Both the position numbers and the translations under genes were made by a program. Positions 27,917-60,105 of a DNA stretch of 64,000 bases are shown here, one piece after another (positions within the stretch are counted from its first letter, which is position 1; each line of letters begins with the position of its first letter). Origin of the DNA: Bacteroidota bacterium. Its GTDB lineage: Bacteria; Bacteroidota; Bacteroidia; Chitinophagales; Saprospiraceae. The DNA lies in contig JAIUPL010000011.1 of NCBI GenBank assembly GCA_020160935.1, positions 62,001-126,000 on the forward strand. The letters run 5' to 3'. The notes below the pieces were generated by a model, which was given only the letters and a program-made list of their open reading frames with translations, did no database searches and was not told the origin of the DNA.

Positions 27917-28240
27917 ATGAGCACCAGACTGGAACAACTGAGTGGTTTGCTGGCTTCGTCGCCTAACGATGCTTTCCTGCTTTTTGCCGTGGCAAAAGAA
28001 TACGAAAAACACGGCAATGATTCGGAAGCCCTTGCGTTTTACCTGCGATTGCAGGAAACGAATCCCAACTACACAGGCTTGTACTACCACCTTGGGAAAC
28101 TGTACGAAAAACAGCAGGATTTCGACCAAGCGATCCTCACCTACAAGCAAGGCATCGACATCTGCAAACAAGCCGGCGACCGCCACGCCATGAGTGAGTT
28201 GGCCGGAGCGCTGATGGGGATTGAGGAGGAGGGGGAGTGA
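27917..28240 (+). CDS. Small tetratricopeptide repeat protein
   Basis: A 107-residue cytoplasmic protein made of about two TPR units (NDAFLLFAVAKEYEKHGNDSEALAFYLRLQETNPNY and LYYHLGKLYEKQQDFDQAILTYKQGIDIC), a protein-protein interaction fold. It precedes the DUF4292 and M23 peptidase genes on the same strand, an arrangement I recall as common in the phylum, so it may assist envelope assembly. The C-terminus becomes acidic and repeat-like (EEEGE) where the neighbouring repeat tract starts. Confidence 0.85.
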   Translation: MSTRLEQLSGLLASSPNDAFLLFAVAKEYEKHGNDSEALAFYLRLQETNPNYTGLYYHLGKLYEKQQDFDQAILTYKQGIDICKQAGDRHAMSELAGALMGIEEEGE

Positions 28241-28418
28241 GGGTTGATAAGGTTGATGAGGGTTGATGAGGGTTGATGAGGGTTGATGAGGGTTGATAAG
28301 TGTTGATATTCAACCGCTCTATGAAAGTAAATTTCAACCCTTATCCCTAGACGCTTTTTATCAACCCTATCAACCTTCATCAACCCTATCAACCTCATCA
28401 ACTTTACCAACCCTCATC
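28238..28418. repeat. GGTTGATGAG palindrome from stop to start
   Basis: From the TPR-gene TGA the sequence continues as units GGGTTGATGA (10 bp; five near-identical copies to about 28300). It then turns at a short apex and returns as ATCAACCCT/CATCAACC units (28358-28418). The return arm ends directly at the ATG of the DUF4292 gene, so the whole 178-base gap is palindrome and the start codon has no normal-looking leader. Confidence 0.85.
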
Positions 28419-30510: not shown

Positions 30511-30603
30511 GTGGTGAGTAGTGAGTGGTGAGTAGTGAGTGAAATTTAACTTTTCTCACTACTCACTACTCACTACTCACTACTCACTACTCACCACTCA
30601 CTA
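30507..30603. repeat. GTGAGTA palindrome from stop to stop
   Basis: 7-bp units GTGAGTA/GTGAGTG start at the TGA of the M23 gene (about 30507-30543). The complementary arm TACTCAC (30551-30602) ends inside the stop codon of the convergent Crp/Fnr gene. The right arm has two units more than the left. The apex is AATTTAAC-like and very short. The same 7-mer occurs as a single arm at 63300-63342. Confidence 0.9.
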
Positions 30604-34184: not shown

Positions 34185-34317
34185 GAGGGGAGTTATGAGT
34201 TATAAGTTATGAGTTATGAGTTATACACACGTTGCTTTTGGCAACCCTGCAAAAGAAGCCAATAGCAATGTGTGTATAACTCATAACTTATAACTTATAA
34301 CTCATAACTCCCCCCTC
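34185..34317. repeat. GAGTTAT palindromic element, copy 1
   Basis: The arms 34185-34242 and 34258-34317 match at about 56 of 60 positions and enclose a 15-nt loop. Distal arms are GAGTTAT/AAGTTAT heptamers, and the apical stem is ACACACGTTGCTTTTGGC / GCCAATAGCAATGTGTGT. The element spans from directly after the TGA of the T9SS type B gene to the stop codon of the convergent S41 peptidase gene. Inverted in orientation relative to copies 2 and 3, its loop reads TTCTTTTGCAGGGTT. Confidence 0.95.
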
Positions 34318-35950
34318 ATTTCTTCACGATCGGTTGTCCGCTTTTCAGCAACTGCTGTGCCTTTTCCACAGCCGGATCGTCGTCGTTCAGCACGCGATAC
34401 AAGCCTTCTTCCCGATACAGCGCTTTGGCAATGCGGGCCTTGAATTGGTGTTTGAGTTCGGCGCGACATTTGGCGAGTTGGGCGGGTTGCGATTTGACGC
34501 CTTGTTTGTCAGCAAATGCAATGAAGCCATCGAAAGCCGCATCGCTGACCTGAAAATCGCGGATAAAACTGTTCAAATCAGCAGGAAGCAACTTGCGGTC
34601 GTTTTGTTCGAGCCAGCGCGCCACGAATTGTGGAATCAACTGCCGCATTTCAAAAAAGTAATCGCTGGCAAAAGAAGTATCCAGCGGAATAAACACGTCC
34701 GGGTAGATGCCGCCTCCACCATAAACCACCCTGCCCATGCCGGTGTAGTACTGGGTGCTGTCGGCAATGGTGATTTTGGAAGCATCGGCGAGTTCGCCAC
34801 TTTTCAGCCTCCGTTCGGCTTCGTGGCTGTATTCTTCATTGTGCTTGTAAGCGCGCTGGATACTTCGCCCACTGGGTGTGTAGTAGCGCGCTACCGTGAG
34901 GCGCAGGGCGCCACCGTCGCCGAGCGGATATTGTTCCTGTACCAGGCCTTTTCCGAACGAGCGCCTTCCCACAACCCAGCCGCGATCCCAGTCCTGAATA
35001 GCGCCGGCTACGATTTCACTGGCCGAGGCCGAGCCTTCATCGATCAGCACGGCAATGTTCTGGATATTGAAACGGGCGCGGCCATTGCTTTTGTAGTCGC
35101 GGCGCGCTTCGGTGCGGCCCTTGGTGTACACCAGTAATTTTCCATCGGGGAAAAGTTGGCTCAGCAGGTCGGTGGCTTCATTGAGGTAGCCGCCGGGGTT
35201 TCCACGCAGGTCGAGTACGAGGTTTTGAAGGCTTTTCTGATCCACCAGGGGTTGCAGTGCTTCCATGAACTCGCGGTACGTGGTGGCGCTGAAACGGTTC
35301 ACTTTGATGTACCCCGTGTGTTCGTCGAGCATATAGGCCACGTCGACACTGTGTACCGGAATAATATCGCGGGTAATGGTAAAAGAGCGCAGGCCTTTCT
35401 CCCGGCCACGTTTCACACCGAGGGCTACCTGGGTGCCTTTTTTCCCGCGCAGGTACCTGAAAATTTCCTTGTTTTCAATTTTTACACCAGCCACAACCGT
35501 GTCGCCAATGGAAACAATCTTGTCGCCCGGGAGCATACCCGCCATTTCGGAAGGGCCGCCGGGAAATACGGAAACAACCTGCATCGTGTCATCGACAAAG
35601 ACATATTCGATGCCAACGCCTTCAAATTCGCCGCTCATGTCGTCTTCCACAGCCTGCAATTCTTCCGGCGAGATGTACACGGAATGTGGGTCGAGTTGTT
35701 CCAGCAAGTGATCTATGGCACCCGTTTTTACGTCATCGATGTCAACCGAGTCGACATATTTGGATTGCACATAGCGCAATATTTCGTCGAGTGTGCCACC
35801 CGAAACACTGCCGGGATTGCCCATCTGGAACAATACATCGCTGTCGTAACGCGGCAATTGCTGGCCAATAAACATACCGATGGTGAGTGCAGCAGCCAGC
35901 ATCAGTGGCAACCTGATTTGCCATTTGGGGGAATTTTCGTCTTGCATCAT
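34316..35950 (-). CDS. S41-family C-terminal processing peptidase
   Basis: A 544-residue periplasmic protease. An N-terminal anchor (LPLMLAAALTIGMFIGQQL, about 14-32) is followed by a PDZ domain (about 95-195, GVGIEYVFVDDTMQVVSVFPGGPSEMAGMLPGDKI). The tail-specific protease core follows, with LVLDLRGNPGGYLNEATDL, and the Ser-Lys dyad S309 (GSASASEI) and K334 (SFGKGLVQ), 25 residues apart as in CtpA/Prc. It degrades or trims proteins by recognising their C-termini. It is transcribed away from the Lrp-type gene, and its stop is embedded in the palindrome at 34185. Confidence 0.95.
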   Translation of the reverse strand: MMQDENSPKWQIRLPLMLAAALTIGMFIGQQLPRYDSDVLFQMGNPGSVSGGTLDEILRYVQSKYVDSVDIDDVKTGAIDHLLEQLDPHSVYISPEELQAVEDDMSGEFEGVGIEYVFVDDTMQVVSVFPGGPSEMAGMLPGDKIVSIGDTVVAGVKIENKEIFRYLRGKKGTQVALGVKRGREKGLRSFTITRDIIPVHSVDVAYMLDEHTGYIKVNRFSATTYREFMEALQPLVDQKSLQNLVLDLRGNPGGYLNEATDLLSQLFPDGKLLVYTKGRTEARRDYKSNGRARFNIQNIAVLIDEGSASASEIVAGAIQDWDRGWVVGRRSFGKGLVQEQYPLGDGGALRLTVARYYTPSGRSIQRAYKHNEEYSHEAERRLKSGELADASKITIADSTQYYTGMGRVVYGGGGIYPDVFIPLDTSFASDYFFEMRQLIPQFVARWLEQNDRKLLPADLNSFIRDFQVSDAAFDGFIAFADKQGVKSQPAQLAKCRAELKHQFKARIAKALYREEGLYRVLNDDDPAVEKAQQLLKSGQPIVKK

Positions 35951-36005
35951 ATACAGAGCAGTCTGTGTTTATTGCAGGTAAATTATGGGTTTGTCAAAAC
36001 AATTG

Positions 36006-36013
36006 TACTTTTG
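36006..36013 (+). promoter_or_regulatory. Promoter element TACTTTTG for Lrp-type gene
   Basis: TACTTTTG fits TAnnTTTG; TTTG at 35990-35993 is nearer than usual. The leader to the start at 36089 would be about 70 bases. It lies in the 138-base divergent gap shared with the S41 peptidase gene. Confidence 0.42.
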
Positions 36014-36088
36014 TTCAACTTTTTGCAAACATCATCCCTTTTACACCCGCATCAATTCAAAAAAATTGCTTTAACTTACACTTCGGCC

Positions 36089-36562
36089 ATGGCAGAAAAT
36101 CCTGATATAGATCAACTGGACAAGCAAATCCTGACAAAACTCATCGAGGACGGTAAAATTCCGTACACCGATATTGCCAAACAACTCTTTGTTTCCAGCG
36201 GCACCATCCACGTCCGGATGAAGAAAATGGAACAACTCGGCATCGTCAAGGGCTCCAGTTTGATCGTCGACTACCACAAACTCGGCTTCGATGTAACGGC
36301 TTTTTTGGGTATTTACCTCGATAAAAGTTCGTTGTACGATGAAGTTGCCGAACAACTCAAACAAATTTCCGAAGTGGTGGAAGCCAATTATACCACTGGC
36401 CTCTACAGTATTTTTGCCAAAATCGTGTGCAAAGATACGAACCACCTGCGCCTGATATTGCATGATAAAATCCAGAAAATATCGGGCATTCAGCGAACCG
36501 AGACTTTTATCTCCCTGGAACAAAGCATCAGCCGCCCGGTTCATTTTCTGGATGGCGAGTAA
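36089..36562 (+). CDS. Lrp/AsnC-family transcriptional regulator
   Basis: A 157-residue regulator starting at MAENPDIDQLDKQILTKL (36089); a much longer frame opening upstream is antisense to the S41 gene and not real. The AsnC-type helix-turn-helix (IPYTDIAKQLFVSSGTIHVRMKKMEQLGIVKG, about 23-55) is followed by a RAM/ligand-binding domain (about 70-150). Such proteins sense amino acids and form octamers. The end of the gene runs directly into an ACACGGATT-type tract. Confidence 0.95.
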   Translation: MAENPDIDQLDKQILTKLIEDGKIPYTDIAKQLFVSSGTIHVRMKKMEQLGIVKGSSLIVDYHKLGFDVTAFLGIYLDKSSLYDEVAEQLKQISEVVEANYTTGLYSIFAKIVCKDTNHLRLILHDKIQKISGIQRTETFISLEQSISRPVHFLDGE

Positions 36563-36567
36563 GTGTA

Positions 36568-36612
36568 ACACGGATTGCGCGGAGAAGGACGGATTTACAC
36601 GGATTTTGTGGG
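36568..36612 (+). repeat. Single ACACGGATT arm after the Lrp-type gene
   Basis: Six bases after the TAA the sequence reads AACACGGATTGCGCGGA followed by ACGGATTTACACGGAT, as after etfA, hscA and the TSP3-OmpA gene. I find no complementary arm in the following 230 bases, so this is a half-element. Confidence 0.75.
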
Positions 36613-36840
36613 GAGAAGGGCGGCATCTGGATTTATGCAGGAGAATGATATTGGTTGGGGTAAGGCAAATATTTTGACTACTGCCAACCAATTGCCAAAA
36701 ACACGAGCCGAAATTTCCGCTGCGCGCCTGACATTTGTTCGCACTATCGTTGGAGAAAACCTCCGGACGGTATGCTGCTGACTTTCGGTTTTGAAATGCC
36801 GCTTGTCGCTACTATTGCTGCTTTACCATCCATGCTGTTC

Positions 36841-38829
36841 ATGAAAAAGACCGTACTCATTGCCCTTACTGTGCCTGCTTTTATAGGCGCCATAACACTT
36901 TATCCTGTTGAAAATCAAAAAGTTGAATTTCATACCAATGCCGAACATGCCTTTTTTAAGGAACATGGGCTGAGTGTGGAGGCTTTTGAAAAACAATTGG
37001 GAGAATCGCCTGATTTTTTGCCCATCGATTCGACGATTCTTTTTCCCACGGCCAAGTTATGTGGCGGTTGCCACGGGCATGACCCCAACGGACATGCACT
37101 GGTGACTACCAGCGGCGAAGATGTAAACATTTACGACCGCTGGCGATCGACTATGATGGCCAACAGTGCCAAAGATCCGTTCTGGCGTGCAAAAGTGACC
37201 CATGAAATTCTGGTGAATCCCTCACACAGCCTCGCCCTGCAGGACAAATGCACGAGTTGCCACGCACCTGCCGGCCATTACCAGGCCAAACTCCAGAAAC
37301 ACCAACTCACTTATACGCTCGCCGATCTGTATTCCGACACGCTAGGGCTTGATGGCGTGAACTGTCAGGCATGCCATGCACAGTCGCCGCTCAACATCGG
37401 CAGCACGCATTCCGGACAACTCAACTACGATACCAATCATATTCGGGTAGCGTATGGCCCTTATGAACTCGTTTTTGCACCACCCATGCACGAATTCGTG
37501 GGTATCACGCCCGAATACGGCGAACATATACTCGATGGCGGACTGTGCGCCGGCTGCCATACCCTGATTACCAATACTGTCGATCTGGAAGGACACCTGA
37601 CGGGCAATACGTTTGTGGAGCAGGCCACGTACCATGAGTGGCTCAACAGCCGCTACGACCGCGATCACGACAATGTATCTTGTCAGACCTGCCACGTGCC
37701 GCAATTGCAGGACGAGATTATTATTTCTGCCAATTACCAGTTTCTGACGCCGAAATTCCCATTCGGCCTGCACGAACTGGCCGGCGCCAATGTATCGATG
37801 CTCAAACTCCTGAAAGAGAATCGCCAGGCCCTGGGCATCACGGCCGAGCCACAGCATTTCGACAGCACCATTGTGGCCACCTTGCGCATGCTCCAGCACA
37901 ATACGCTCGATTTGGAACTGAATACGGGCATTTTGAACGGCGATTCGGTTGATTTTTCTGTAAAACTCAGCAACAAAGCCGGTCACAAATTCCCTTCAGG
38001 CTATCCTTCCCGCCGCGCCTGGATCGAGTTTGAAGTAGAAAATGAGGCTGGCGAGGTGGTATTCCATTCCGGCCGCATGAATGCCGATTACAGCCTGCCC
38101 GATGAAGATGCCAACTTCGAACCACACTACGACTGGATCAATGCGCCGGGGCAGGTGCAGATTTATGAACTGGTGCCTGGCGACGTGAATGGCAATTTTA
38201 CCAATGTGCTGGAACGCGGTGATGAAGGCATCAAAGACAACCGCCTGACGCCCCAGGGATTCCGCATCAGTGACCCTGTGTACGATACGACGCTGATTAT
38301 CGGCGCTGCCCTCCTGGACCCCGACTTTAACCGCGATGCCGCTGGTATGGAAGGCTCTGGCAGCGACATTGTGCACTACCGGATTCCTACCCACGGCTAC
38401 GATGGCCTCTTGAAAGTGCGCGCACGGGTATGGTACCAGTCGCTTCCGCCGAAATGGATGATGCCGATGTTTGAATATTCTTCTCCAGAAATCGATTCTT
38501 TCAAAAATATGTTCAACGCGGCCGACCGCTCGCCGGTACTGGTAGCCGAGCGTGTGCTCGATTCCGTGCTGGTGAGTTCCGTTGCTACCCACCAGGCTGT
38601 AGACCCGTCATTGGTGCAGGTAACGCCTACCCTGAGCCGCGATGGGCAGGTGCATATCCAGACCAGTGGCGATGTGCAACTGCGCCGCATTCAAATCTGG
38701 GACAGCGCCGGCCACCTTGTATGGGATCAGCCTGCGCGCGCGGTGTGGCTGCCTGCCGACAAGGGCGTTTATTTTATTGCCATTGATACGAACAAGGGAA
38801 GAGTGGTGAGAAGAGTGGTGAGAGGGTGA
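36841..38829 (+). CDS. Exported five-heme c-type cytochrome
   Basis: A 662-residue protein starting at MKKTVLIALTVPAFIGAI (36841), a signal peptide; the frame upstream is not protein-like. Five heme-binding CxxCH motifs are visible: CGGCH (C74), CTSCH, CQACH, CAGCH and CQTCH, all in the first ~290 residues, as in cytochrome c554-like electron carriers. The second half is a beta domain (VDFSVKLSNKAGHKFPSGYPSRRAWIEFEV). The C-terminus resembles a type A T9SS tail (WDSAGHLVWDQPARAVWLPADKGVYFIAIDTNKG), suggesting export to the cell surface. The last ten residues GRVVRRVVRG are encoded by a repeat tract that continues past the stop. Confidence 0.88.
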   Translation: MKKTVLIALTVPAFIGAITLYPVENQKVEFHTNAEHAFFKEHGLSVEAFEKQLGESPDFLPIDSTILFPTAKLCGGCHGHDPNGHALVTTSGEDVNIYDRWRSTMMANSAKDPFWRAKVTHEILVNPSHSLALQDKCTSCHAPAGHYQAKLQKHQLTYTLADLYSDTLGLDGVNCQACHAQSPLNIGSTHSGQLNYDTNHIRVAYGPYELVFAPPMHEFVGITPEYGEHILDGGLCAGCHTLITNTVDLEGHLTGNTFVEQATYHEWLNSRYDRDHDNVSCQTCHVPQLQDEIIISANYQFLTPKFPFGLHELAGANVSMLKLLKENRQALGITAEPQHFDSTIVATLRMLQHNTLDLELNTGILNGDSVDFSVKLSNKAGHKFPSGYPSRRAWIEFEVENEAGEVVFHSGRMNADYSLPDEDANFEPHYDWINAPGQVQIYELVPGDVNGNFTNVLERGDEGIKDNRLTPQGFRISDPVYDTTLIIGAALLDPDFNRDAAGMEGSGSDIVHYRIPTHGYDGLLKVRARVWYQSLPPKWMMPMFEYSSPEIDSFKNMFNAADRSPVLVAERVLDSVLVSSVATHQAVDPSLVQVTPTLSRDGQVHIQTSGDVQLRRIQIWDSAGHLVWDQPARAVWLPADKGVYFIAIDTNKGRVVRRVVRG

Positions 38830-38848
38830 GTGGAGTGGGGGGGTGAGG
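38797..38848 (+). repeat. GAGTGGT/GAGAAGA tract overlapping a 3' end
   Basis: Short-period purine-rich units (GAGTGGT, GAGAAGA, GAGGGT) start ten codons before the TGA of the cytochrome gene and continue about 20 bases after it. Facing C-rich sequence (CCTTCCCCCACTTCC, 38861-38876) can pair imperfectly with part of it. The tract is C-free in the mRNA sense. Confidence 0.65.
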
Positions 38849-38949
38849 CCCTCAAACCCTTCCCCCACTTCCCCCCGCCGCCCCTCTGTCGAATTTCTCC
38901 CACCCAACAACCTGCCTGCGCCGTTCTTCGGGTCATCAACCACCTGAAC

Positions 38950-41391
38950 ATGACGCAGACCCACCACAAATACTGGTTTTTGCCCCTGATCTTCCTCGCG
39001 TGCAACCTTACGGCCGCTTTTTCCCAAACCTTGCGCGGTATGGTAAAAGACGCCCAAGGCAAGCCGCTCGAAGCCGTTACCCTCAGCCTCCTGCGCAGCG
39101 CCGACAGCACACTGGTAAAAGTAGAACTCAGCGATGCGGCGGGGCAGTTCGAATTTCCCGGCCTGAAACCCGGCGCATATCGTGTGGCTGCTACTTCGCT
39201 GGGTTTTGAAAAACAAATGAGCGAGGTGCTGCAAATAGGCGCTTCCGACGCCAGTCTGCCACCCATCACGCTCCACGAATCTGCACAAGCCTTGCAGGAA
39301 GTGACTGTGGCGGCCCAGCGGCCCTTCATCGAGCGGCGCAGCGACCGGCTCATCGTCAATGTCGACAACAGCATACTGGCTACGGGCAGCACAGCCTTCG
39401 AGATTCTGGGCCGCTCGCCGGGCGTGATCGTCAATGCCAACGATGCCATCACCATCCGGGGTCGGGCGGGCACCATCATCCTGATCGATGGCAAACCTAC
39501 GCCGCTGTCGGGGCAGGATTTGGCCAATTACCTGCGAGCCCTACCTTCGGGCAGCATCGACCGCATCGAGGTCATCACCAACCCATCGGCCAAATACGAC
39601 GCGGCGGGCAATGCGGGCATCATCGATATTCGCCTGAAAAAAGACAAAAGCCTGGGTACCAACGGCTCGGCCAATGCCTACTACAGCCAGGGCGTGTACC
39701 CGAAATTCGGGGCCGGATTCAACTTCAACCACCGGCAAAAGAAGTGGAACCTGTTCGGCAACTACAATTACAGCGACCGCGACTGGATGAATGACCTGAA
39801 ACTGTACCGCACTTTTTATGAAAACGGGCAGCCAACGGGCGCGTACGACCAGCGCAATTTGCTCATTTTGCCTTTCCATTTTCACAACGGCAGGGTAGGG
39901 GTCGATTATTTCCTGAGCCCCGTCACCACGGTCGGCGTGCTGGCTTCCGGCTCGCTGAATCGCTACAACGCGCGCACCAACAATTTTTCAGATGTGGAAA
40001 ACGGCGCAGGGGAAAAAATCGGCGCCTTCAACACCACCAACGCCGGGCGCGACAAATGGCCCATGCTGGCCCTGAACGGCAACCTGAAACACAGTTTCAA
40101 ACAAAAAGGCCGGGAAATCAGCGTCGACCTCGACTATATCCAATTCGGCAATACCACCGCGCAAAACTACACCACGCGCTACTTCGACACGGAAGGCGTG
40201 GAATACCGGTCGCCGTACCTGCTCGTCGGCGACCTGCACGGCGACCTGAAAATTCGCAGCGTCAAAGCCGACTACACGCATCCGCTGGGCAGCGCAGGTA
40301 AACTAGAAGCGGGCCTGAAAAGCAGCCTCGTGGATGCCGACAACGAACTGGAATTTTATGACAAAAGCGACGCCGCGCACCCTATCCTCGACACCACGAT
40401 CAGCAATCACTTTTTATACCGCGAAAACATCAACGCCGCCTACCTGAATTACAGCCGCGAATGGACAAAATTCAGCCTGCAAGCGGGCATACGTGCTGAA
40501 AATACCATCGCCAAAGGCAAACAACTTACCACCGGCCAAACCTTCGACCGCAATTACGTCAACTGGTTTCCCAGCACGTTTTTTACATATCAGTTTTCGG
40601 AAAAATACACCATGGGCCTCAATATGAGTCGCCGCCTCGACCGACCCACCTACGATCAACTCAATCCGTTCAAATCTTTCCTCGATCCCAGTACGCTGAA
40701 GGTGGGCAATCCGTACCTGAATCCGCAATTCACCTGGTCGTTCGAATGGAACCACACGTTCCGGCAGCGCTACACGGCCACACTCTCGTATGCGCGCACA
40801 ATCGACAACATCACGCAGGTGATTGGACCGGTGGAGGGCCTGATACGTGTGACGGCCCAAACAGACCGCAACTTAGCCGTCGCCGAATACTACTCGCTCA
40901 ACCTCAGCGCACCGCTGCAGCCGTTCAAATGGTGGAACAGCATCAACAGCCTCGATGTGTACCAGGGCCTGTACCGCGGCATTTATGCCAATACCAACCT
41001 CAACGACGGCAATCTCGTGCTGTTTTTCAATAACAACAACACGTTTACCCTGAAAAACGACTGGTCGGCCGAACTCAATTTCCGCTACAAAACCCATGAA
41101 GTGTACGGATTTATGGACATCAACCCGATGTGGGGCCTGGGTTTCGGCGTGCAAAAACAGGTGTGGAACAAGCAGGTCTCCATCAAACTGGCCTTCACCG
41201 ACGTATTCTGGACGGATTTGCCCTCGGCTACCATCCGCTACCGCGATTACATCGAAATGTTCGATGTGCGCCGCGAAACCCGTCTGGCAACGCTGTCCGT
41301 TTCCTATCGTTTCGGCAGCAACCAGGTGGCGCAAGCCCGCAGAAGAACTGGTGGGGCGGAAGAGGAACGGCGGAGAGCAGGGGGGACTTAG
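38950..41391 (+). CDS. TonB-dependent outer-membrane receptor
   Basis: An 813-residue outer-membrane barrel. Start at MTQTHHKYWFLPLIFLACNL (38950), a signal peptide ending AAFSQ. A carboxypeptidase-regulatory-like domain (about 27-105, LRGMVKDAQGKPLEAVTLSLL) is followed by a plug (about 115-220, FEILGRSPGVIVNANDAITIRGRAGTIILIDGKPT). A barrel of the outer-membrane beta-barrel family 3 type follows (YSQGVYPKFGAGFNFNHRQK ... RRLDRPTYDQLNPF). It probably imports an unknown substrate using TonB energy. No SusD or DUF4249 partner is on its own strand. The C-terminus ends GGAEEERRRAGGT, possibly extended, and the stop borders a palindrome. Confidence 0.92.
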   Translation: MTQTHHKYWFLPLIFLACNLTAAFSQTLRGMVKDAQGKPLEAVTLSLLRSADSTLVKVELSDAAGQFEFPGLKPGAYRVAATSLGFEKQMSEVLQIGASDASLPPITLHESAQALQEVTVAAQRPFIERRSDRLIVNVDNSILATGSTAFEILGRSPGVIVNANDAITIRGRAGTIILIDGKPTPLSGQDLANYLRALPSGSIDRIEVITNPSAKYDAAGNAGIIDIRLKKDKSLGTNGSANAYYSQGVYPKFGAGFNFNHRQKKWNLFGNYNYSDRDWMNDLKLYRTFYENGQPTGAYDQRNLLILPFHFHNGRVGVDYFLSPVTTVGVLASGSLNRYNARTNNFSDVENGAGEKIGAFNTTNAGRDKWPMLALNGNLKHSFKQKGREISVDLDYIQFGNTTAQNYTTRYFDTEGVEYRSPYLLVGDLHGDLKIRSVKADYTHPLGSAGKLEAGLKSSLVDADNELEFYDKSDAAHPILDTTISNHFLYRENINAAYLNYSREWTKFSLQAGIRAENTIAKGKQLTTGQTFDRNYVNWFPSTFFTYQFSEKYTMGLNMSRRLDRPTYDQLNPFKSFLDPSTLKVGNPYLNPQFTWSFEWNHTFRQRYTATLSYARTIDNITQVIGPVEGLIRVTAQTDRNLAVAEYYSLNLSAPLQPFKWWNSINSLDVYQGLYRGIYANTNLNDGNLVLFFNNNNTFTLKNDWSAELNFRYKTHEVYGFMDINPMWGLGFGVQKQVWNKQVSIKLAFTDVFWTDLPSATIRYRDYIEMFDVRRETRLATLSVSYRFGSNQVAQARRRTGGAEEERRRAGGT

Positions 41392-41506
41392 GAGTTATGA
41401 GTTATGAGTTATGAGTTTTTTCTCACGTTGCTTTTGGCTTCTTTATCAGGGCTGCCAAAAGCAACGTGCGTAAAACTCATAACTCATAACTTATAACTCA
41501 TAACTA
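41391..41506. repeat. GAGTTAT palindromic element, copy 2
   Basis: The arms 41391-41438 and 41454-41506 pair around a 15-nt loop TTCTTTATCAGGGCT. The apical stem is CACGTTGCTTTTGGC with GCCAAAAGCAACGTG, perfect over 15 bp. Distal arms are GAGTTAT heptamers, with one unit more on the right. The left arm begins in the stop codon of the TonB receptor and the right arm ends in the stop codon of the convergent DUF4249 gene. Confidence 0.95.
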
Positions 41507-42556
41507 CTCCTCCCATCCCTCCGGCTCCACCTGTGTCCGATACAATCCTTCAATACAAGGCGCCGAAGCGAGCGGCAGGCTGGTGAAGGGCAGATAAAAC
41601 TTGGAGATACGGGCGTAACGGCCGTTGATAGGCTTGGAGCGGTCGACGATGACCACTTTTTTGCTGTAGGAGAATACGCTGAACACGCCGAGAATCTTTT
41701 CAGCGGGGTTGTTGACGTTGACGATGTTGGGGCTGAAACGCGTTTGGGCCGGGATGTCGAAAACCGAGCCGTTGTTTTGCGTTTGGGTTTCCAGCGATTG
41801 CAGGTAGGTAAAAACCGTAGGCGTGATGGCGCGTTGCTGCACCTGCAGATAATACTTGTTGGGTGGATTGGTGAATGGCACGCGCATGATCTTGTGGGCC
41901 AGCGGCTGCCCGTCGCGCAATTGATCCGACTGCACATTCACGAGGGTGTTGTACGTGATATTCCAGCAGCCATACGGATTGCAGGGGTACAACACATCCA
42001 TGCCATTTTCCCTAAAAACTCCACAGCCGACAGCCTTTTCGTAGTGAATCCAGTCCCACTGGTAGAAGTTGGGCTGCCCCGGAATGTCCTGGGTATTGGC
42101 ATACACGTCGAAGCCGTAGTAGGAAAAATCTTCCGGCACCCGGTTTCTTTCTTCGGTGTAAATCACCGCCAGTGAGTCAAGTGTCGGACAGGCGGGCATG
42201 GTTTCAGGGCTGGATTCGTAGTTGTTCCCATCTACGGTTACAAACAGGCGGTACGTTTCGCCCACCACTCCGTGGAAATTCGGATTTTTGTTGCCATCAA
42301 TAGAAAAAAACGTTGCATTCCCTTGACTGTCAACCACATATGCCGAGGCATTGGCCGGCGGTGTTGGGAATTGGTAAGCGCCCTGCGAAGTCACTTTATC
42401 AAGGGTGTAGGTGACGCGCACTTTTCCGTAGTCCGGCGTCAGTTCTGCGTCAATCACCAGAAAACGTTGCCCATCAGGCAGCGTGGAAGTATCCACCGGA
42501 TATTGGCAGGCATAGGTCAGCAGCATCAAGGCCAGTGCAGTGAGGCAGTTGCGCAT
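41504..42556 (-). CDS. DUF4249 lipoprotein, receptor partner
   Basis: A 350-residue exported protein. The ATG at 42556 is the likely start (a TTG nine bases earlier opens the frame). The signal sequence LTALALMLLTYAC ends in a lipobox-like Cys. Family features include LPDGQRFLVIDAELTPDYGKVRVTYT, VVGETYRLFVTVDGNNYESSPETMP, and GRYARISKFYLPFTSLP. DUF4249 proteins are encoded next to TonB receptors in Bacteroidota and may act as SusD-like surface partners. Here the receptor gene ends one base before this start, so the two form a tight operon. Confidence 0.9.
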   Translation of the reverse strand: MRNCLTALALMLLTYACQYPVDTSTLPDGQRFLVIDAELTPDYGKVRVTYTLDKVTSQGAYQFPTPPANASAYVVDSQGNATFFSIDGNKNPNFHGVVGETYRLFVTVDGNNYESSPETMPACPTLDSLAVIYTEERNRVPEDFSYYGFDVYANTQDIPGQPNFYQWDWIHYEKAVGCGVFRENGMDVLYPCNPYGCWNITYNTLVNVQSDQLRDGQPLAHKIMRVPFTNPPNKYYLQVQQRAITPTVFTYLQSLETQTQNNGSVFDIPAQTRFSPNIVNVNNPAEKILGVFSVFSYSKKVVIVDRSKPINGRYARISKFYLPFTSLPLASAPCIEGLYRTQVEPEGWEE

Positions 42557-42557
42557 G

Positions 42558-44981
42558 TTATTCAAATTTAAAATTATAGGTCAGGGAAAACAGCGGCGCC
42601 GGGAACACGCTCACTTTAAACGGTTTGAACGACGCCAGGGCCGGGTTGAAGAAGTACGAAAACGCATTTTTGCGGCCGTAAATGTTGTACACCGTTACGA
42701 TCCAGGAACTCTCCCAGCGCCGTTGTTTCAGCGAAGGATTCTGGATCGTCCAGGAAACGTCGAGCCGATGGTAATCCGACACACGCGCATTGTTCCGATC
42801 CGTGTACACGGGAATGATATTCAGCCCGTTTTGGTAAAAACTCACGGGCGCCGTGTATGGCCTGCCGGTGCTGTAGGTAAAGGTAAATGATACGGAATTG
42901 TGTTTATCTGACTGAAAATTCAGCAACATGTTGACTGTGTGCGGTTTGTCGATGTTTGTTCTGAACCAGTCGCCGTTGTTCAACTGCTGCAATGCCGGGT
43001 AGTCGCCCAGGATCTGCTGAAAACTGCGGGCATAGGTATAACTCACCCAGCCCGTCATCACACCTTTTTTTTTGCTGACAAACAATTCGGCGCCGTAGGC
43101 ACGGGCGCTGCCTTTGAGCAACTGCGTTTCAACCAGCGGGTTGATACTCAGTTCAGCGCCGCTGAGGTAATCAAAAATCGAACGTTGCCAGCGGTAATAC
43201 CCTTCCAGTGACCATTCCCACATGCGGCTTTTTGTATCGCGGAAATAACCCACCGACACCAGATCGCTTTGCGCCGGCGGTACGTAGCGGTTCGAAGTTT
43301 TCCAGCGGGCATTAGGCAGCGGCGTGGTGTTGTTGGCAATGATTTGCAGAAACTGGTTCATGCGGTTGTATCCCGCTTTTACCGAACTGTTTTCCGTAAG
43401 TTTGTAGCGCAGCGCCAGGCGCGGTTCGAGCCGACCGTAGGTAGATTCCACTTCGCTGTTGCCCAGGCTCAGGTAATTCAGCACACTACCGGGCGTTTTG
43501 GGGCCTTCTTCCGAAAAAACGGGCACTTGCAGCGGTCCCACATTCCAGTATTGCACATAGCGAAGTCCGGGTTCGACGAGCAGTTTGTCGCCAATTTCAT
43601 ATTCGTCGGCGGCAAAAATGGCGGCTTCCCAGGCCTGTTCGTCGGGTAGCAGCACCGAGGCCACCGACGAGCCTTCATGCGGAATCAGTTTGGCCGGACT
43701 GATGCCGTAGCGCGTCAGCGAAGCGCCCACATTGATGCGTTGCCTGGTATCCGGTGCATACGTCAGTTCACCTTTCAACTGGTGGTAGCGCAGGCGTGTA
43801 TCGAAATCGAAGCCAGCCTGCACATCCTCTCCGGTCGTGGTGGTGTTGTACAGCGACTGCACAGCCAGCACATTGAGGTTCATTTGGTCGGAAATGGAGC
43901 GGTTCCAGCGCAGGGCCAGGTTGTTGTGCCCGTATTGCATAGTCGACTGCCGGGGCACAATGCCAGCGATGGAAAACAACGAATCGACCTGATACGAGTC
44001 GTAACTGATGTAACTGGTCAGGGAAATATTGTCGCGATACGTCGGTTTCCAGGTTATTTTATTGGCAAAATCTACAAAAACGGGCTTGTTGTTGGGGATG
44101 CGTTTGTTGACAATCCGGTCGTACAGGATGTTGTTGTAAAATTTGATGAGGTACTCATTCAGGGAAAAACGCGCGGAAGTCATCCAGCCGATTTTATCTT
44201 TCACCAACGGTATTTCTGCGTGCAACCTGTTGGAAATGAGCCCGATACCGCCACGCATTTTGAACTTTTCGGCGCTGGGTTCGCTCATTTTTACATCCAG
44301 CACACCGGCAGTGCGGCCGCCGTAACGCGCCGGGATGGAGCCTTTGTAAATCTGCATTTCCCGAATAGCATCGGTTGGAAACAGGGAAAACAGGCCTAGC
44401 AGGTGTGTGGGGTTGAACACGGGCATGTTGTCGAGCAGGATCAGGTTTTGATCAACTGCTCCACCCCGAATATTGATGCCATTGGCGCCTTCACCCACGG
44501 CCGAGATGCCGGGAAGCGTTTGAATGCCGCGCAGGATATCGACCTCACCTGCGGCAGGCGGCAGTTTTTGCACGGCTTTGATGCTGAGCACACTCACGCC
44601 GAGCGCGGGTGTTTCCATGGTGCGCACACTGCTCTGCGAACTGATGACCACCTCTTCAATTTGCGTGGCGATGTTTTCCATGCTGAATTCCTGCACTTCC
44701 TGCCCGCTTACAGTTATTTTTTTATTAAACGGCTTGTAGCCCAGGGTTTGCAGACGGATCGTGTGTTCGGCACAGGTGACGGGCATTTTCAGTCGCCCCA
44801 GCGAGTCGCTCGACATGCCGGTTTCCCGGCCGTCCATTTTCAGCGAAACGCCATGCAACGGCTCCTCGCTTTGGGCGTCGATGATTCTGGCAACGAAATA
44901 ACAGGGTGTTTGCGCGTAAAGGGAGAGCGAAGCCAGCAAGAGTAGAAAAACCCGGAAGGAGCCGTAAAGAGATTGCATCAT
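42558..44981 (-). CDS. TonB-dependent receptor, DUF4249 partner
   Basis: An 807-residue outer-membrane receptor with signal peptide (SFRVFLLLLASLSLYAQ). It has an N-terminal carboxypeptidase-regulatory-like domain (about 20-100, YFVARIIDAQSEEPLHGVSLKM), a plug (about 115-230, ILRGIQTLPGISAVGEGANGI, NLILLDNMPVFNPTHLLGLF) and a barrel to the C-terminal aromatic residue (LTYNFKFE). The plug start SSQSSVRTMETPALGVSVLSI is typical of receptors encoded with DUF4249. Substrate unknown. It is first in the two-gene operon; I see no clear promoter in the 143 bases upstream. Confidence 0.93.
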   Translation of the reverse strand: MMQSLYGSFRVFLLLLASLSLYAQTPCYFVARIIDAQSEEPLHGVSLKMDGRETGMSSDSLGRLKMPVTCAEHTIRLQTLGYKPFNKKITVSGQEVQEFSMENIATQIEEVVISSQSSVRTMETPALGVSVLSIKAVQKLPPAAGEVDILRGIQTLPGISAVGEGANGINIRGGAVDQNLILLDNMPVFNPTHLLGLFSLFPTDAIREMQIYKGSIPARYGGRTAGVLDVKMSEPSAEKFKMRGGIGLISNRLHAEIPLVKDKIGWMTSARFSLNEYLIKFYNNILYDRIVNKRIPNNKPVFVDFANKITWKPTYRDNISLTSYISYDSYQVDSLFSIAGIVPRQSTMQYGHNNLALRWNRSISDQMNLNVLAVQSLYNTTTTGEDVQAGFDFDTRLRYHQLKGELTYAPDTRQRINVGASLTRYGISPAKLIPHEGSSVASVLLPDEQAWEAAIFAADEYEIGDKLLVEPGLRYVQYWNVGPLQVPVFSEEGPKTPGSVLNYLSLGNSEVESTYGRLEPRLALRYKLTENSSVKAGYNRMNQFLQIIANNTTPLPNARWKTSNRYVPPAQSDLVSVGYFRDTKSRMWEWSLEGYYRWQRSIFDYLSGAELSINPLVETQLLKGSARAYGAELFVSKKKGVMTGWVSYTYARSFQQILGDYPALQQLNNGDWFRTNIDKPHTVNMLLNFQSDKHNSVSFTFTYSTGRPYTAPVSFYQNGLNIIPVYTDRNNARVSDYHRLDVSWTIQNPSLKQRRWESSWIVTVYNIYGRKNAFSYFFNPALASFKPFKVSVFPAPLFSLTYNFKFE

Positions 44982-45124
44982 TTATGTTGGAGCAGGAGAA
45001 AAAGGAATATTCAAATTCCGTATTCTCTATAAAAGACGCAATAATAAAATAAACTGTTGGACTTATTTGAAAAAATGGAATAAGAGGTGGGGTATGTCGG
45101 GATATTGCAAAAGGGCAGGAAAAT

Positions 45125-45553
45125 CTATTTGAGCAATTCAAATTTGTATTCTACCGATTCGATCCGTGGATTCCCTTTTTCGTCATTTTGTTTGAATACC
45201 ACGGTGATCCCAATGGTTTCACTTTCGTCCTTGTCTTTGCTGTCGAATACCACATCGAGGCGACCTTTCTGTCCGGGAGCAAATACGCCGCGTGGAAAAT
45301 CGACGCGCGTGCATTCGCAGGCATCCACGATGTCGATCTGTATGTTTTCGGCAGATGTATTGGTAAATTCAAAAAAAGTAGTACGCTTCTCACCCTTTTT
45401 CACCTGGCCGAGGTCGACCATTTTTTTATCCCAGGTGACAAACGCAGCAGGTTTGACAGGCGGCGGCGGCGCAGGGGCGACTGCTTGTGCGGTTTGAGCC
45501 GTGTGGCAGGAGAGGAGGGTGAAGAACGAGAGGATGGTGAGTAGATGTTTCAT
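45125..45553 (-). CDS. DUF1573 lipoprotein
   Basis: A 142-residue exported protein starting at MKHLLTILSFFTLLSCHTAQ (45553). FFTLLSC is a good lipobox, so it is probably a lipoprotein. The DUF1573 (ASH/MSP-like beta-sandwich) domain covers residues about 38-130 (VDLGQVKKGEKRTTFFEFTNTSAENIQI, DACECTRVDFPRGVFAPGQKG). Function of the family is unknown. The open frame upstream of 45553 is only the translated 42-bp repeat. Confidence 0.9.
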   Translation of the reverse strand: MKHLLTILSFFTLLSCHTAQTAQAVAPAPPPPVKPAAFVTWDKKMVDLGQVKKGEKRTTFFEFTNTSAENIQIDIVDACECTRVDFPRGVFAPGQKGRLDVVFDSKDKDESETIGITVVFKQNDEKGNPRIESVEYKFELLK

Positions 45554-45566
45554 AAGACTGATTTTT

Positions 45567-45692
45567 GAACACGGATTGCGCGGAATAAACGGATTTACAC
45601 GGATATGGGAACACGGATTGCACGGAATAAACGGATTTACACGAATATGGGAACACGGATTGCGCGGAATAAACGGATTTACACAGATTGGA
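45567..45692. repeat. Three direct repeats of 42 bp
   Basis: Copies start at 45567, 45609 and 45651 with an exact 42-base period, differing at a few positions. The unit is the ACACGGATT phrase AACACGGATTGCGCGGA plus ATAAACGGATTTACACGGAT and a short ATATGG spacer. There are no unique spacers, so it is not a CRISPR array. The third copy is also the left arm of the palindrome that follows. Confidence 0.92.
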
Positions 45693-45768
45693 TGGAGGAA
45701 AAGCAAAGACTGTTCTTTTTTTCACCATCCAATCCGTGTAAATCCGTTTATTCCGTGCAATCCGTGTT
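45652..45768. repeat. ACACGGATT palindrome ending at the hscA stop
   Basis: The arms 45652-45695 and 45725-45768 (44 bp each, few mismatches) enclose a 29-nt loop with TGTTCTTT, like the loop of the element upstream of etfA's stop. The right arm ends in the TAA of hscA, so in the hscA sense the message reads TAAACACGGATTGCACGG. Only this third 42-bp unit has a complementary partner. Confidence 0.92.
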
Positions 45769-47627
45769 TATATTTTTTTCCCTGCCATTGCCGACTGAAT
45801 ATTAATATCCAGCGCCCGGTGTGCCAGCGGCGTGGTGTAGGTATTCAGCGTTTCAATGGCGCGGTGAATAACGTCCTTGTCGTCGGATTTGGTGGCAGCC
45901 TCCAGTTCGTTTAACAAAGCGTTTGTATGGCTTTTTTCTTCTTCCGTTAAAATGGCGTGGTTTTGCTGGAGGAATTTGCGGCCCGACAGCAGCATATTAT
46001 TGGCTTCGTTGCGCGCTTCCAGCAGGCCCCGGGCTTGCATGTCCGACTGCGCATGCTGAATACTGTCGAGCAGCATCATGGCCATCTCTTCTTCTGAAAT
46101 GCCGTAAGTAGGTTTTATTTCCACCTGTGTTTCCAGGTTGCTGCGCAGTTCGCGGGCCCGCACGGTTAGGATACCATCGGCATTTATGATGAACTGGATG
46201 TCGATTTTCGGCAGCCCGGCCGGCATGGGAGGGATGTCACGCAGGATAAACTCGCCAAGTTTGCGGTTGTGTTCCACCAGGTCGCGTTCGCCCTGGAACA
46301 CGCTGATTTTCAGGTTTTTCTGTCCGTCGATGCTGGTGGTGTACTGACGCCCGGCTTTGGACGGGATTTTGGAGTTGCGCGGTATGATCACGTCCATCAG
46401 TCCGCCGACCGTTTCGATGCCAAGCGACAAGGGTGTCACGTCGAGCAGCAGCAGTTCTTTTTGGTTGCCAGCCAGAATATCGGCCTGGATGGCAGCGCCA
46501 AGCGCCACCACTTCATCGGGATTGAGGCTGTCGAACACAGGTTTTCCGAAGAAAGCCGACACGGTATTTTTCACACAAGGCATGCGCGTGCTGCCGCCCA
46601 CCATGATGATATGGTCGATCTGTTCGGGGTGGAGGCCGGCATCGCGCAGGGCGTTGTTGCAGCAGGCCATGGTGCGCTCGATCAGCGGCTCTACCAGTCG
46701 TTCGAAGCGGCTTTTGGTGATGGCAACTTTCCGGCCCTGGAGTTCGGCATCAAATTCATCTGCGCCGGACAGGTGTTTTTTGGCGGCTTCTGCCAAGAGG
46801 CGAATTTCCTGTCCGAGTTCCTTGTTGTCGTTGAGTTCCTGGGTGGTAATGCCCAATTCTTGCTGCCAGAGGTGCACAATGGCGCGGTCGAAGTCGTCGC
46901 CCCCCAGAAACGTATCGCCATTGGTAGACAGCACTTCAAAAATGCCATTTTCGATGCGTAGAATGGAAATATCGAAGGTGCCGCCACCGAGGTCGTACAC
47001 GGCCACGGTGCCCGGCGGCGCATCGGCGCCCTGGCCGAGTCCGTAAGCAAGGGCTGCGGCAGTGGGTTCATTTACAATGCGCAGTACGTCGAGTCCGGCG
47101 AGTTTGCCGGCATCGCGGGTGGCTTGCCGCTGGGTGTCGTTGAAATAGGCGGGCACAGTGATCACGGCCTTGCTGATCGTGGACTGCAAATTTTGCTCTA
47201 TCCGCACTTTCAGTTCGCGCAGGATGTGGGCGCTGAGTTCGACGGGGGTGTAAAAACGATCCTTTACCCGAATTTTTACCAGCGAGTCGGTATCGTCATC
47301 GATGATCTGGTAGCCGTAAAAACTTTCGGTGCCGTGCACGTCTTTGAACGACTTGCCCATGAGGCGTTTGACGGAGTAAATGGTATTGGACGGGTCGGTA
47401 ACGAGGAAGCGTTTGGCTTCGTCACCGACCGTAATTTGTTCATTTTCACTAAAATGCACCACGGAAGGTACCAACGTGCTTTTTCCATCGGCGCCGGATA
47501 CGCACACTGGTTGCCCGTTATTCATATATGCCACCAGGCTGTTGGTGGTACCCAGATCGATGCCCACGATGGTTTCGCGGTTGGATTCCACCGTGCCGTC
47601 TTTCAGATTTATTGCGAATGTTGCCAT
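45768..47627 (-). CDS. hscA: Hsp70-family chaperone HscA
   Basis: A 619-residue Hsp70. Nucleotide-binding domain (about 20-390): GIDLGTTNSLVAY, VYDLGGGTFDISIL, IIMVGGSTRMP; substrate-binding domain about 395-550. NPDEVVALGAAIQADILAGNQ and the overall length of about 620 fit HscA, the chaperone that helps IscU deliver Fe-S clusters, rather than DnaK of about 640 residues with its long acidic tail. No isc or hscB genes are nearby, so it stands apart from its usual cluster. Plain DnaK is the alternative. Both gene ends adjoin palindromes of two different families. Confidence 0.88.
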   Translation of the reverse strand: MATFAINLKDGTVESNRETIVGIDLGTTNSLVAYMNNGQPVCVSGADGKSTLVPSVVHFSENEQITVGDEAKRFLVTDPSNTIYSVKRLMGKSFKDVHGTESFYGYQIIDDDTDSLVKIRVKDRFYTPVELSAHILRELKVRIEQNLQSTISKAVITVPAYFNDTQRQATRDAGKLAGLDVLRIVNEPTAAALAYGLGQGADAPPGTVAVYDLGGGTFDISILRIENGIFEVLSTNGDTFLGGDDFDRAIVHLWQQELGITTQELNDNKELGQEIRLLAEAAKKHLSGADEFDAELQGRKVAITKSRFERLVEPLIERTMACCNNALRDAGLHPEQIDHIIMVGGSTRMPCVKNTVSAFFGKPVFDSLNPDEVVALGAAIQADILAGNQKELLLLDVTPLSLGIETVGGLMDVIIPRNSKIPSKAGRQYTTSIDGQKNLKISVFQGERDLVEHNRKLGEFILRDIPPMPAGLPKIDIQFIINADGILTVRARELRSNLETQVEIKPTYGISEEEMAMMLLDSIQHAQSDMQARGLLEARNEANNMLLSGRKFLQQNHAILTEEEKSHTNALLNELEAATKSDDKDVIHRAIETLNTYTTPLAHRALDINIQSAMAGKKI

Positions 47628-47640
47628 GGGAGAGAGGAGA

Positions 47641-47794
47641 GAAGTGAGGAAAGAGTTATGAGTTAGGGAGTTATGAGTTATGAGTTATACACACATTGCT
47701 ATTGGCTTTTTCATTAGAGTGGCCGAAAGCAATGTGTGTATAACTCATAACTCATAACTCATAACTCCCTAACTCATAACTCTTTCCTAACTTC
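47641..47794. repeat. GAGTTAT palindromic element, copy 3
   Basis: The arms 47641-47706 (66 bases) and 47722-47794 (73 bases) are nearly identical except that the right arm has exactly one extra GAGTTAT unit. The loop is 15 nt, TTTTTCATTAGAGTG. The apical stem is ACACACATTGCTATTGGC / GCCGAAAGCAATGTGTGT. On the plus strand it is followed by TTTTTTT. Unlike copies 1 and 2 it lies between divergent genes (hscA and the queuosine transporter), upstream of both. Confidence 0.95.
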
Positions 47795-47898
47795 TTTTTT
47801 TGCCGCGAAGGTAATAAACATCTCCCCTAAACCCTGCCGGCCCTGTACTTGTTCATTTCCCGATTTATTCCAACCTTGCACGGCTAAACGAAACCTTC

Positions 47899-50293: not shown

Positions 50294-50582
50294 CAACACG
50301 GATTGCGCGGATAGAGACGGATTTGAAACACGGATTACACAGAAAGAGACAGATTTTCACGGATTGGATGGAGGGGTAAGGGTTGATTTTTACGGATGGG
50401 ATTGCAATGGATGATGTGTCTGTTGCAATCCTTTCTATTTGTTGATATAGCCTGCCTGCCCTAAAATTCGTAAAAATCAACCCTTATTCCTCCAACCAAT
50501 CTGTGAAAATCCGTCTCTATCTGTGTAATCCGTGTTCCCCAATCTGTGAAAATCCGTCTCTTTCTGTGTAATCCGTGTTTCA
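50294..50582. repeat. ACACGGATT palindrome after the TSP3-OmpA gene
   Basis: Beginning eight bases past the stop with AACACGGATTGCGCGGAT, units continue to the main arms 50325-50396 and 50467-50538: 72 bases each, about 64 matches, no gaps. The 70-nt loop has an inner hairpin GATTGCAA / TTGCAATC. A second copy of the outer unit follows at 50540-50582. With the bases up to 50668 it fills a 382-base gap before the Nudix gene. Confidence 0.9.
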
Positions 50583-50668: not shown

Positions 50669-51307
50669 ATGGATTACTCCCGCATTGAATTATTAAAAAC
50701 CCGATTGACCCGACCTCTGCCGGGCCGGGAAGCCCAGTACCGTATGGCCAGTATCCGCCGTTTGGAAGAATTGGGGTTTAACCCCGTTCCTCCGGATGAT
50801 GCACGTATTGCATGTGTGCTCAATTTGCTTTCCTGGCAAGAGGACGGCTGGCATACGCTTCTCATTCAACGCACACAAAACCCCCACGATCGGCATAGCG
50901 GACAAGTGAGTTTTCCGGGCGGGCGGTATGAGGAAAATGATGGTGAACTGGAAAATGTCGCCTTGCGAGAAACCTTCGAAGAAGTTGGTATTCCGCCTGA
51001 TCAAATCGAAATCCTGGGCCGACTGACGGAATTGTACATTCCCGTAAGCAACCACGTGGTGCATCCTTTTGTCGGCTTGCTAAAAAATCCGGTCGATCTG
51101 AAACCTCAATGGAGCGAAGTGGAATCCGTTCTGCATCCGCCTATCGAATCGCTCCGGAAACCGGAAAGCCGCAAAACAACTACCCTGACGCTTTCCAATG
51201 GCATCACCCTGAAAGACGTGCCCTATTTTGATGTGGATGGAAAAATTGTGTGGGGCGCTACAGCGATGATATTGAGCGAGTTTTTGGAGGTGTGGAGTAG
51301 TTATTAA
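50669..51307 (+). CDS. Nudix hydrolase, CoA pyrophosphatase type
   Basis: A 212-residue cytoplasmic hydrolase. The Nudix box is complete: GGRYEENDGELENVALRETFEEVGI (G-x5-E-x7-R-E-x2-E-E-x-G, about residues 88-113). The CoA-type signature upstream (LLIQRTQNPHDRHSGQVSFPGG) matches CoA pyrophosphatases (NudL/YeaB), which split CoA or acyl-CoA into phosphopantetheine and 3',5'-ADP. Length is usual. The last codons (S-S-Y) and the TAA lie within the start of a TTATTAAG-type repeat. Confidence 0.92.
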   Translation: MDYSRIELLKTRLTRPLPGREAQYRMASIRRLEELGFNPVPPDDARIACVLNLLSWQEDGWHTLLIQRTQNPHDRHSGQVSFPGGRYEENDGELENVALRETFEEVGIPPDQIEILGRLTELYIPVSNHVVHPFVGLLKNPVDLKPQWSEVESVLHPPIESLRKPESRKTTTLTLSNGITLKDVPYFDVDGKIVWGATAMILSEFLEVWSSY

Positions 51308-51451
51308 GTTATTGGTTATTAAGTTATTTGGGGTGGTAGTGGGCCATTTTCACAAATAACTGGCTACACTATATAGGAAGCAAAATATTGTGAAAATGGT
51401 CCACTACCACCCCAATAACTTAATAACTAATAACTTAATAACCAATAACTA
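51298..51451. repeat. GTTATTA palindrome from stop to stop
   Basis: The arms 51298-51355 and 51388-51451 are built of GTTATTA/GTTATTG units plus a unique apical stem GGGGTGGTAGTGGGCCATTTTCACAA-type segment (with one G/A difference), around a 32-nt loop. The left arm begins before the TAA of the Nudix gene, and the right arm ends in the TAG of the convergent ABC permease gene. Confidence 0.93.
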
Positions 51452-60078: not shown

Positions 60079-60105
60079 GCTCGGTGAAGGAGCGATCAAA
60101 TTTTG

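Follow-up and report, generated by a model that had tools for sequence, protein, structure and literature searches.

A family of long intergenic palindromes with arms of GAGTTAT heptamers, here called F1, was analyzed starting from a 64,000-nt stretch (the window) of contig JAIUPL010000011.1 of a Bacteroidota bacterium (Saprospiraceae), whose 5.84 Mb genome is assembled in 51 contigs. The comparison of this genome (the own genome) with a same-genus relative, G028, which is 84–88% identical along the part of the window from approximately 25 to 50 kb, and with three further relatives (G016, G031 and G006; 71–83% identical to the own genome) revealed that gaps with a hairpin in one genome mostly carried one in the other, often with different contents. 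We give an even chance to the following reading: palindromic sites persist, their tips (around 69 nt, i.e., a 27-bp stem plus a 15-nt loop) are copied between sites, and their arms would be kept mirror-symmetric by fold-back copying.

The first-pass annotation of the window had reported three such palindromes, and this observation was confirmed, since all three copies were found where it had placed them, with verified inverted arms (Table 1). The GAGTTAT heptamer occurred 23 times in the window, compared to 4.05 expected. Copies 1 and 3 coincided with inverted repeats at 34177-34323 (92% complementary) and 47633-47795 (76% complementary ungapped, 98% in the outer arms), respectively. That of copy 2 (41392-41505) was recovered with a purpose-written hairpin finder (at least 28 paired arm positions, span of up to 500 nt) and lay outside the 25 pairs shown by the inverted-repeat scan. 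Folding as single-stranded DNA, set against shuffled sequence, gave z-scores of -16.2, -14.6 and -17.8 for copies 1, 2 and 3, the last one trimmed to 47645-47790. Loops of 15 nt were read in all three copies from the sequence and from centroid folds; the loop length given earlier thus stands, and the loop sequence then given for copy 1 is its minus-strand reading. Two of the three copies fill convergent gaps from stop to stop, as had also been stated.

Evidence that the sites themselves persist came from orthologous gaps. The regions compared contain 24 gaps of 30 bp or more, of which 20 were mappable to G028, with a hairpin in both genomes in seven, in the own genome only in none, in G028 only in one and in neither in 12 (Fisher p = 1e-4). 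By eye, the single G028-only gap holds an imperfect palindrome in the own genome. We consider it highly improbable that ordinary REP-like repeats were independently inserted into a few tolerated gaps with no memory of the site. Such insertion would agree with the preference of F1 for gaps between two gene 3′ ends, but 12 of the 20 gaps were hairpin-free in both genomes, while all seven mappable gaps with an own hairpin were also occupied in G028, and relatives have an outer layer in common at the copy 3 site.

With regard to the contents of the sites, 13 junctions with a hairpin in both genomes were compared by eye (a fourteenth row, G028 C40 versus L065, was removed, its flanks not being alignable). 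Eleven of them aligned on both flanks and two on one flank, namely L066:1948, where the following own gene is not there in G028, and L087:1948, where G028 shows a contig break or rearrangement. The same hairpin family was found at four sites (window 25668, 28213 and 45652; L066:1948), the same arms with a different tip at two (window 41392, i.e., copy 2; L087:3718) and a different hairpin at seven (window 26862, 30506, 34187 (copy 1) and 47647 (copy 3); L066:3845, L067:1846 and L087:1948); the two hairpins at L067:1846 have related tips but unlike arms. In the relatives G016, G031 and G006, other palindromes were present in eight of the nine site-genome combinations of the three F1 copies, some of them at a contig end or aligned on one flank, the ninth (G016 at copy 3) not being judgeable. 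Palindrome layers were nested in G006, and an outer AAGTGAG layer at the copy 3 site was common to the own genome, G028, G031 and G006. As a separate observation, a segment encoding a PMT_2-type transferase (L066, ~2076-3518) has an F1 palindrome on one side and a GTTATC-type palindrome on the other in the own genome; it is missing between the corresponding flanks in G028, which has one palindrome there. Contigs of the relatives also start or end at or near palindromes (L197, i.e., G028:C51; L110, i.e., G016:C339; L087 versus G028 C197/C180); assemblies therefore appear to be interrupted at them, and hairpin counts from short-read genomes are probably too low.

The family was then delimited with a covariance model of the F1 tip (R1), built from 51 own copies, which match it by construction. 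In this search, of the kind proposed in the first-pass annotation, copies were found genome-wide at no fewer than 80 places (147 matches counting both strands), a lower bound, given that 150 of the 2283 first-look candidates were scored. Independently of the model, the pattern TTGCTWTTGGC-N15-GCCAAWAGCAA with up to three mismatches occurred at 68 places genome-wide, at least two of which carry other arms (L039 and L084), compared to one for the reversed control, and GAGTTATGAGTTAT gave 383 genome hits versus none for its control. The apical stem covaries: 14 of its 27 pairs were altered on both sides, with 83 double-change cells versus 28.4 after shuffling, and 94.4% of the stem cells were paired, a value that fell to at most 41.9% once the partner was slid. 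These figures refer to a 51-row alignment, derived from 59 raw apex hits by removing three (chance or other family), which left the 56 rows used for the mismatch count below, and then one twin and four other-tip copies (L072, L085, L086 and L087). By majority, the loop reads TTCTTYATTAGAGTG, the last base being weakly supported; it was free of gaps in 148 of the best 150 of 163 R1 matches, the remaining two rows being both strands of one place. Both the stem covariation and the loop conservation that had been put forward as checks were thus found.

In a search of 120 genomes with stricter filters, R1 matched the own genome and five congeneric ones. A strict pattern search over a named genome collection, from which own-genome records were possibly left out, returned 18 stretches, seven in MAG-362 and 11 single hits in other taxa. 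A wide taxonomic spread of the tip was rejected, as only one of these 11, L225, resembled a tandem-armed palindrome. This stretch of a Bacteroidota metagenome-assembled genome (JAKQJD01) carries, at ~640-800, a TTGCTCTTGGC-15nt-GCCAAGGGCAA tip in GTGTTTG-type arms and is like a G028 family with larger loops. Within the own family, a subfamily of ten copies has an asymmetric tip (L072, L085, L087, L159, L235, L238, L240, L248, L250 and L251), in which GATGCTGTACTCTTGGC stands against GCCAAAAGCAGCGTGAG. These copies pair at only 9–13 of the 27 positions in register, yet the tip is still reproduced; it apparently arose as a hybrid between two types of tip and then multiplied.

Regarding the relation of tips to arms, two copies 2.3 kb apart (L061:1947 and L061:4258) showed no difference at any of the 69 tip positions, mismatches included, while their arms diverged from the tip boundary outward, GAGTTAT against GAGTGAT, mirrored on both sides. 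The tips of L044 and L052 had one difference, compared to 10–15 positions typical of copy pairs, and F1 tips were also found within GTGAGTG/A arms (L057 and L067). Identical or nearly identical tips in different arms at unrelated sites indicate that copying treats the tip as a separate unit. The first-pass interpretation was thus partly borne out, with a dispersed family whose copies were duplicated.

Tips were also more alike within than between genomes. For 64 own and 11 G028 tips, obtained from 78 given sources, the mean distance was 0.195 within the own genome, 0.141 within G028 and 0.260 between both, and the nearest neighbor belonged to the same species for 73 of the 75 tips, including 10 of the 11 from G028. 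The only orthologous F1/F1 pair was 33% different and ranked 62 of 64 in similarity. G028 tips mostly carry GTGTTACGTAC or a close variant and own tips TATACTCAC or a variant, with the other arm compensated. This is the pattern of concerted evolution, of which the family shows signs at its persistent sites.

The arms, in turn, resembled their own partner more than those of other copies, with a mirror score of 20.3 within a copy versus 15.7 between copies (p = 7e-7). This analysis comprised 75 copies, i.e., 76 minus the chance hit L087:2132. In 15 of the 75, at least 10 nt were mirrored beyond the heptamers, compared to 1.8% of shuffled pairs, and in L070 and L249 the mirroring extended into unique flanking DNA. 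We infer from this symmetry that fold-back copying may act at each site.

Taken as a mechanism of exchange, which we infer from these comparisons, long palindromes would hold stable intergenic places whose contents are overwritten by copying. Exchange could proceed by conversion anchored in the shared heptamer arms (strand annealing or a RecA-type reaction), after which fold-back templated synthesis would copy one arm onto the other and re-symmetrize the palindrome in place. The same synthesis would allow the repeats to lengthen, usually by 7 nt at a time. The first-pass annotation's "small mobile palindrome" comes near to this; however, the comparison does not show simple insertion, as sites are retained from one species to another, with frequent replacement of their tips and arms.

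Several observations weigh against persistence with copied contents. Turnover is not universal, as four of the 13 orthologous sites retain their family. Three of the four unmappable gaps contain own hairpins, and only nine of 139 own hairpins were mappable in the G028 stretches compared, because a small part of G028 was compared. The difference between orthologous tips comes from a single F1/F1 pair aligned on one flank, and R1, being built from own copies, is biased toward tips that resemble them. As an outer heptamer is part of the mirrored stretch in several of the 15 copies, mirroring strictly in unique flanks concerns few copies. On its own, arm-anchored conversion fails to account for the change of a site from GAGTTAT arms to GTGAGAG or AGGATTT arms. 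Finally, no hairpin-free counterpart was seen for the hairpin sites compared, so that insertion may also play a part. A tentative variant, which we regard as possible though less than probable, is hairpin homing, where tips of ~70 nt home into existing hairpins and replace the resident tip, the address persisting across species. If this were true, the number of durable docking sites with interchangeable contents in a bacterial genome would run into the hundreds.

Transposases of the Y1 type were considered as mobilizers. It is somewhat doubtful, albeit conceivable, that single-stranded tips are brought into existing hairpins by a trans-acting transposase, with a RAYT-type Y1 (HUH) enzyme as the best candidate, while old arms remain as eroding outer layers. 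The nested palindromes of G006 and the shared AAGTGAG layer at the copy 3 site would fit such layers. Y1_Tnp genes were present in 34 of 42 genomes of the genus. Two hairpins, neither of them tandem-armed, were found in 282 kb sampled from eight genomes without Y1, compared to 23 hairpins in 366 kb from 22 genomes with Y1, of which 18, spread over 11 of these genomes, were tandem-armed, a correlation that is uncorrected for phylogeny and comes from unequal sampling. RAYT itself lay in four of the Y1-bearing stretches, whose hairpins include three, one of them tandem-armed, that resemble RAYT's own repeats. Moreover, no F1-like element was present at any of the 31 RAYT loci listed (two own Y1 genes plus 29 from relatives, up to 1.5 kb on each side). 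Tandem-armed hairpins occurred at two of them, one with 8-nt tandem arms adjoining the RAYT gene at L149 (G012) and one with heptamer arms ~1.2 kb from it at L134 (G021); the other 29 loci showed REP-like repeats or no hairpin at the finder threshold. RAYT was thus rejected as the obvious mobilizer. Neither of the two own Y1_Tnp genes adjoins an F1 element; they adjoin repeat types of their own, at L046 1276-1370 and L047 ~1260-2220 (a GGGCGTTGCCC..GCCCTTTCAGGGC palindrome and GTAGTTGGCGAGGACGCCAACTAC repeats).

Two further candidates were discarded. SbcD attacks long palindromes in E. coli. It had no match in the own genome and exceeded the family cut-off in five of the 42 genus genomes, but the hairpin-poor genomes sampled were also below the cut-off, which speaks against its loss as the permissive cause. 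An autonomous element between close copies was likewise rejected: the open reading frames of four pairs were listed, and the three proteins searched in Pfam, a PMT_2-type transferase, a DUF4230 protein and an asparagine synthase, included no transposase.

The position of F1 relative to genes, taken from simple self-made gene models, was in line with a preference for 3′ ends. The 75 copies were distributed over 33 convergent, 31 tandem and seven divergent gaps, two were inside genes and two at edges, compared to 47 convergent, 134 tandem and 58 divergent background gaps of at least 30 bp in contig C43 and the window. The distance from the 37-nt apex to each of the two stops was 26–60 nt for 26 of the 33 convergent copies, so that the gap is filled by the arms. 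One may thus propose that hairpins are selected as bidirectional 3′-end structures (terminators or mRNA protectors), in which position is fixed, any hairpin sequence suffices and the sequence turns over freely; we rate this as rather unlikely. In its favor are precisely the convergent copies and their gap-filling arms. In contrast, TTTTT was found within 12 nt of the last heptamer at seven of 149 ends (4.7% versus 3.2% in the background), which indicates that F1 copies are not canonical (intrinsic) terminators, and selection on position would leave identical tips at different sites, the conserved loop and the common 7-nt period unexplained. Such selection and site persistence with copied contents may both hold: many sites lie directly behind stop codons, where turnover could be harmless or the hairpin could help to end or protect mRNAs.

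The stem covariation and the conserved 15-nt loop could also be taken as signatures of an RNA, i.e., of RNA-mediated spread via a reverse transcriptase or of a structured regulatory RNA with a recognized loop, the latter having been suggested in the first-pass annotation. We regard both as very unlikely. On the strand defined by the loop, the 56 copies contained 36 G·T and 40 A·C mismatches; this equality means that neither strand is favored as a folded RNA. In the 31 tandem gaps, the loop was oriented with the genes in 14 cases and opposite to them in 17, i.e., at random, and an Rfam search of the window gave no match above the gathering scores. An additional stem inside the loop was rejected, as none of its four pairs was changed on both sides. 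Furthermore, reverse transcriptase was rejected as a mobilizer, since RVT_1 had no match at E 0.001 in G028, G016, G006 and G031, all four of which carry tip-model matches. The F1 palindromes are DNA-level elements, and an RNA with a recognized loop is not supported.

F1 is not the only family of this kind, but one of a dozen long-hairpin clusters in the own genome and G028, whose arms are often tandem repeats. The hairpin finder reported 12 hairpins in the window, 51 in 400 kb of contig C43 and 106 in 719 kb of G028 (110 once two more stretches were added and neighboring pieces merged), and none in 100 kb of shuffled sequence. Tandem-repeat arms were present in 38 of 63 own and 79 of 110 G028 hairpins, compared to 3–4% of random stretches, with a period of 7 nt being the commonest (25 of the 38 and 48 of the 79). 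Clustering of 158 tips from both genomes gave groups of 50, 13, 11, 9, 7, 6, 6, 6, 4, 4, 3 and 3, plus smaller ones; eight of these 12 groups include own-genome members, and the group of 50 merges several heptamer types. Exact TTGGC-15-GCCAA hairpins proved too strict a definition of a superfamily, with two in the own and four in the G028 stretches. Besides the palindromes in Table 1, the window contains three long intergenic ones of other families at 7895-8006 (ACCACGAAGG family), 53941-54145 (GGCAAGG heptamers) and 60049-60345 (CGGATTTT with GGCC).

Table 1. F1 copies and further palindromes of the window (window positions; the strand of F1 copies is set by the loop)
Feature	Position	Strand	Context or source
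F1 copy 1; GAGTTAT arms; tip 34216-34284; loop 34243-34257	34185..34317	-	convergent gap, CHU_C-domain protein gene / S41 peptidase gene
F1 copy 2; tip 41412-41480; loop 41439-41453	41391..41506	+	convergent gap, OMP_b-brl_3 gene / DUF4249 gene
F1 copy 3; tip 47680-47748; loop 47707-47721	47641..47794	+	divergent gap, HSP70 / Vut_1 genes
CACGGATT-family palindrome; same family in G028	25668..25806		hairpin finder and site alignment
Palindrome, GGTTGAG-type arms; G028 counterpart with GGGTTGATGA-type arms and another tip	26862..26958		hairpin finder and site alignment
Imperfect palindrome, GGGTTGATGA-type arms; same family in G028; own copy missed by the finder	28213..28420		by eye
Palindrome, GTGAGTG/GTGAGTA arms; G028 counterpart with GAGTTAT arms and GGC-15nt-GCC tip	30506..30603		hairpin finder and site alignment
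CACGGATT-family palindrome; same family in G028	45652..45768		hairpin finder and site alignment
Long intergenic palindrome, CACGGATT-type outer arms	50295..50579		hairpin finder
Palindrome, AAGTTATT-type arms; minus strand weakly matched by R1 (E 0.0005)	51298..51450		hairpin finder and R1

Among known systems, GTAG REPs are described, in excerpts of PMC3733652 and PMC8049555, as having a stem of 5–13 bp, a loop of 2–20 nt and a GTAG tag cleaved by RAYT. As far as those excerpts on REP/REPIN go, F1 resembles them in consisting of dispersed intergenic hairpins, in having subfamilies with alternative complementary stem residues, in the location of many copies behind genes and in forming long-lived sequence populations within one genome. 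In contrast, the F1 tip stem of 27 bp plus repeat arms exceeds the 5–13 bp of GTAG REPs (PMC3733652, excerpt), although the 15-nt loop is within their range, and content replacement at orthologous sites is not mentioned for REP/REPIN in the excerpts of either article. F1 also differs in lacking GTAG at either foot of the tip in the 51-row alignment, and no F1-like element flanks the RAYT genes of the 31 listed loci. Other hairpin families in the own genome and G028 set carry GTAGAGT. With regard to MITEs, there was no empty site for a target-duplication check, and no transposase among the three Pfam-searched proteins between copies.

The SDRs of Nostoc punctiforme treated by Elhai et al. in 2008 are reportedly hairpins of 21–27 nt with compensatory changes, lying in tandem heptamers, nested and probably mobile, the enzyme not being known. 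By this description, F1 would share with these cyanobacterial SDRs the heptamer context and the compensatory changes, and would differ in its 69-nt tip (versus 21–27 nt), its symmetric arms and its phylum. The nearest systems in behavior would be these SDRs and, in the excerpted account of PMC4478555, the yeast mitochondrial GC clusters; the latter are organellar and GC-rich and have AG as target nucleotides, and heptamer arms are not mentioned in that excerpt. For the intergenic heptamer repeats of Xanthomonas and Nostoc, the part of PMC4692102 that describes them likewise records numerous intergenic 7-nt tandem arrays, inverted in some cases; they were studied there as G-quadruplex-forming GGGAATC, and that part mentions no conserved hairpin tip. 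No description of the F1 family was found in the open-licence literature, among the matches listed, and none of the heptamer strings was found there.

The usual view of short palindromic repeats is that they either degenerate where they are or transpose to other positions. The hairpins described here keep their place but often not their sequence, and a dozen clusters of them are available for comparison in two related genomes. Two cautions follow: the sequence of a hairpin need not be conserved when its position is, and DNA copying, not an RNA, can be the source of covariation in repeats of this type. How small repeats without genes copy themselves thereby becomes directly testable by the comparison of strains.

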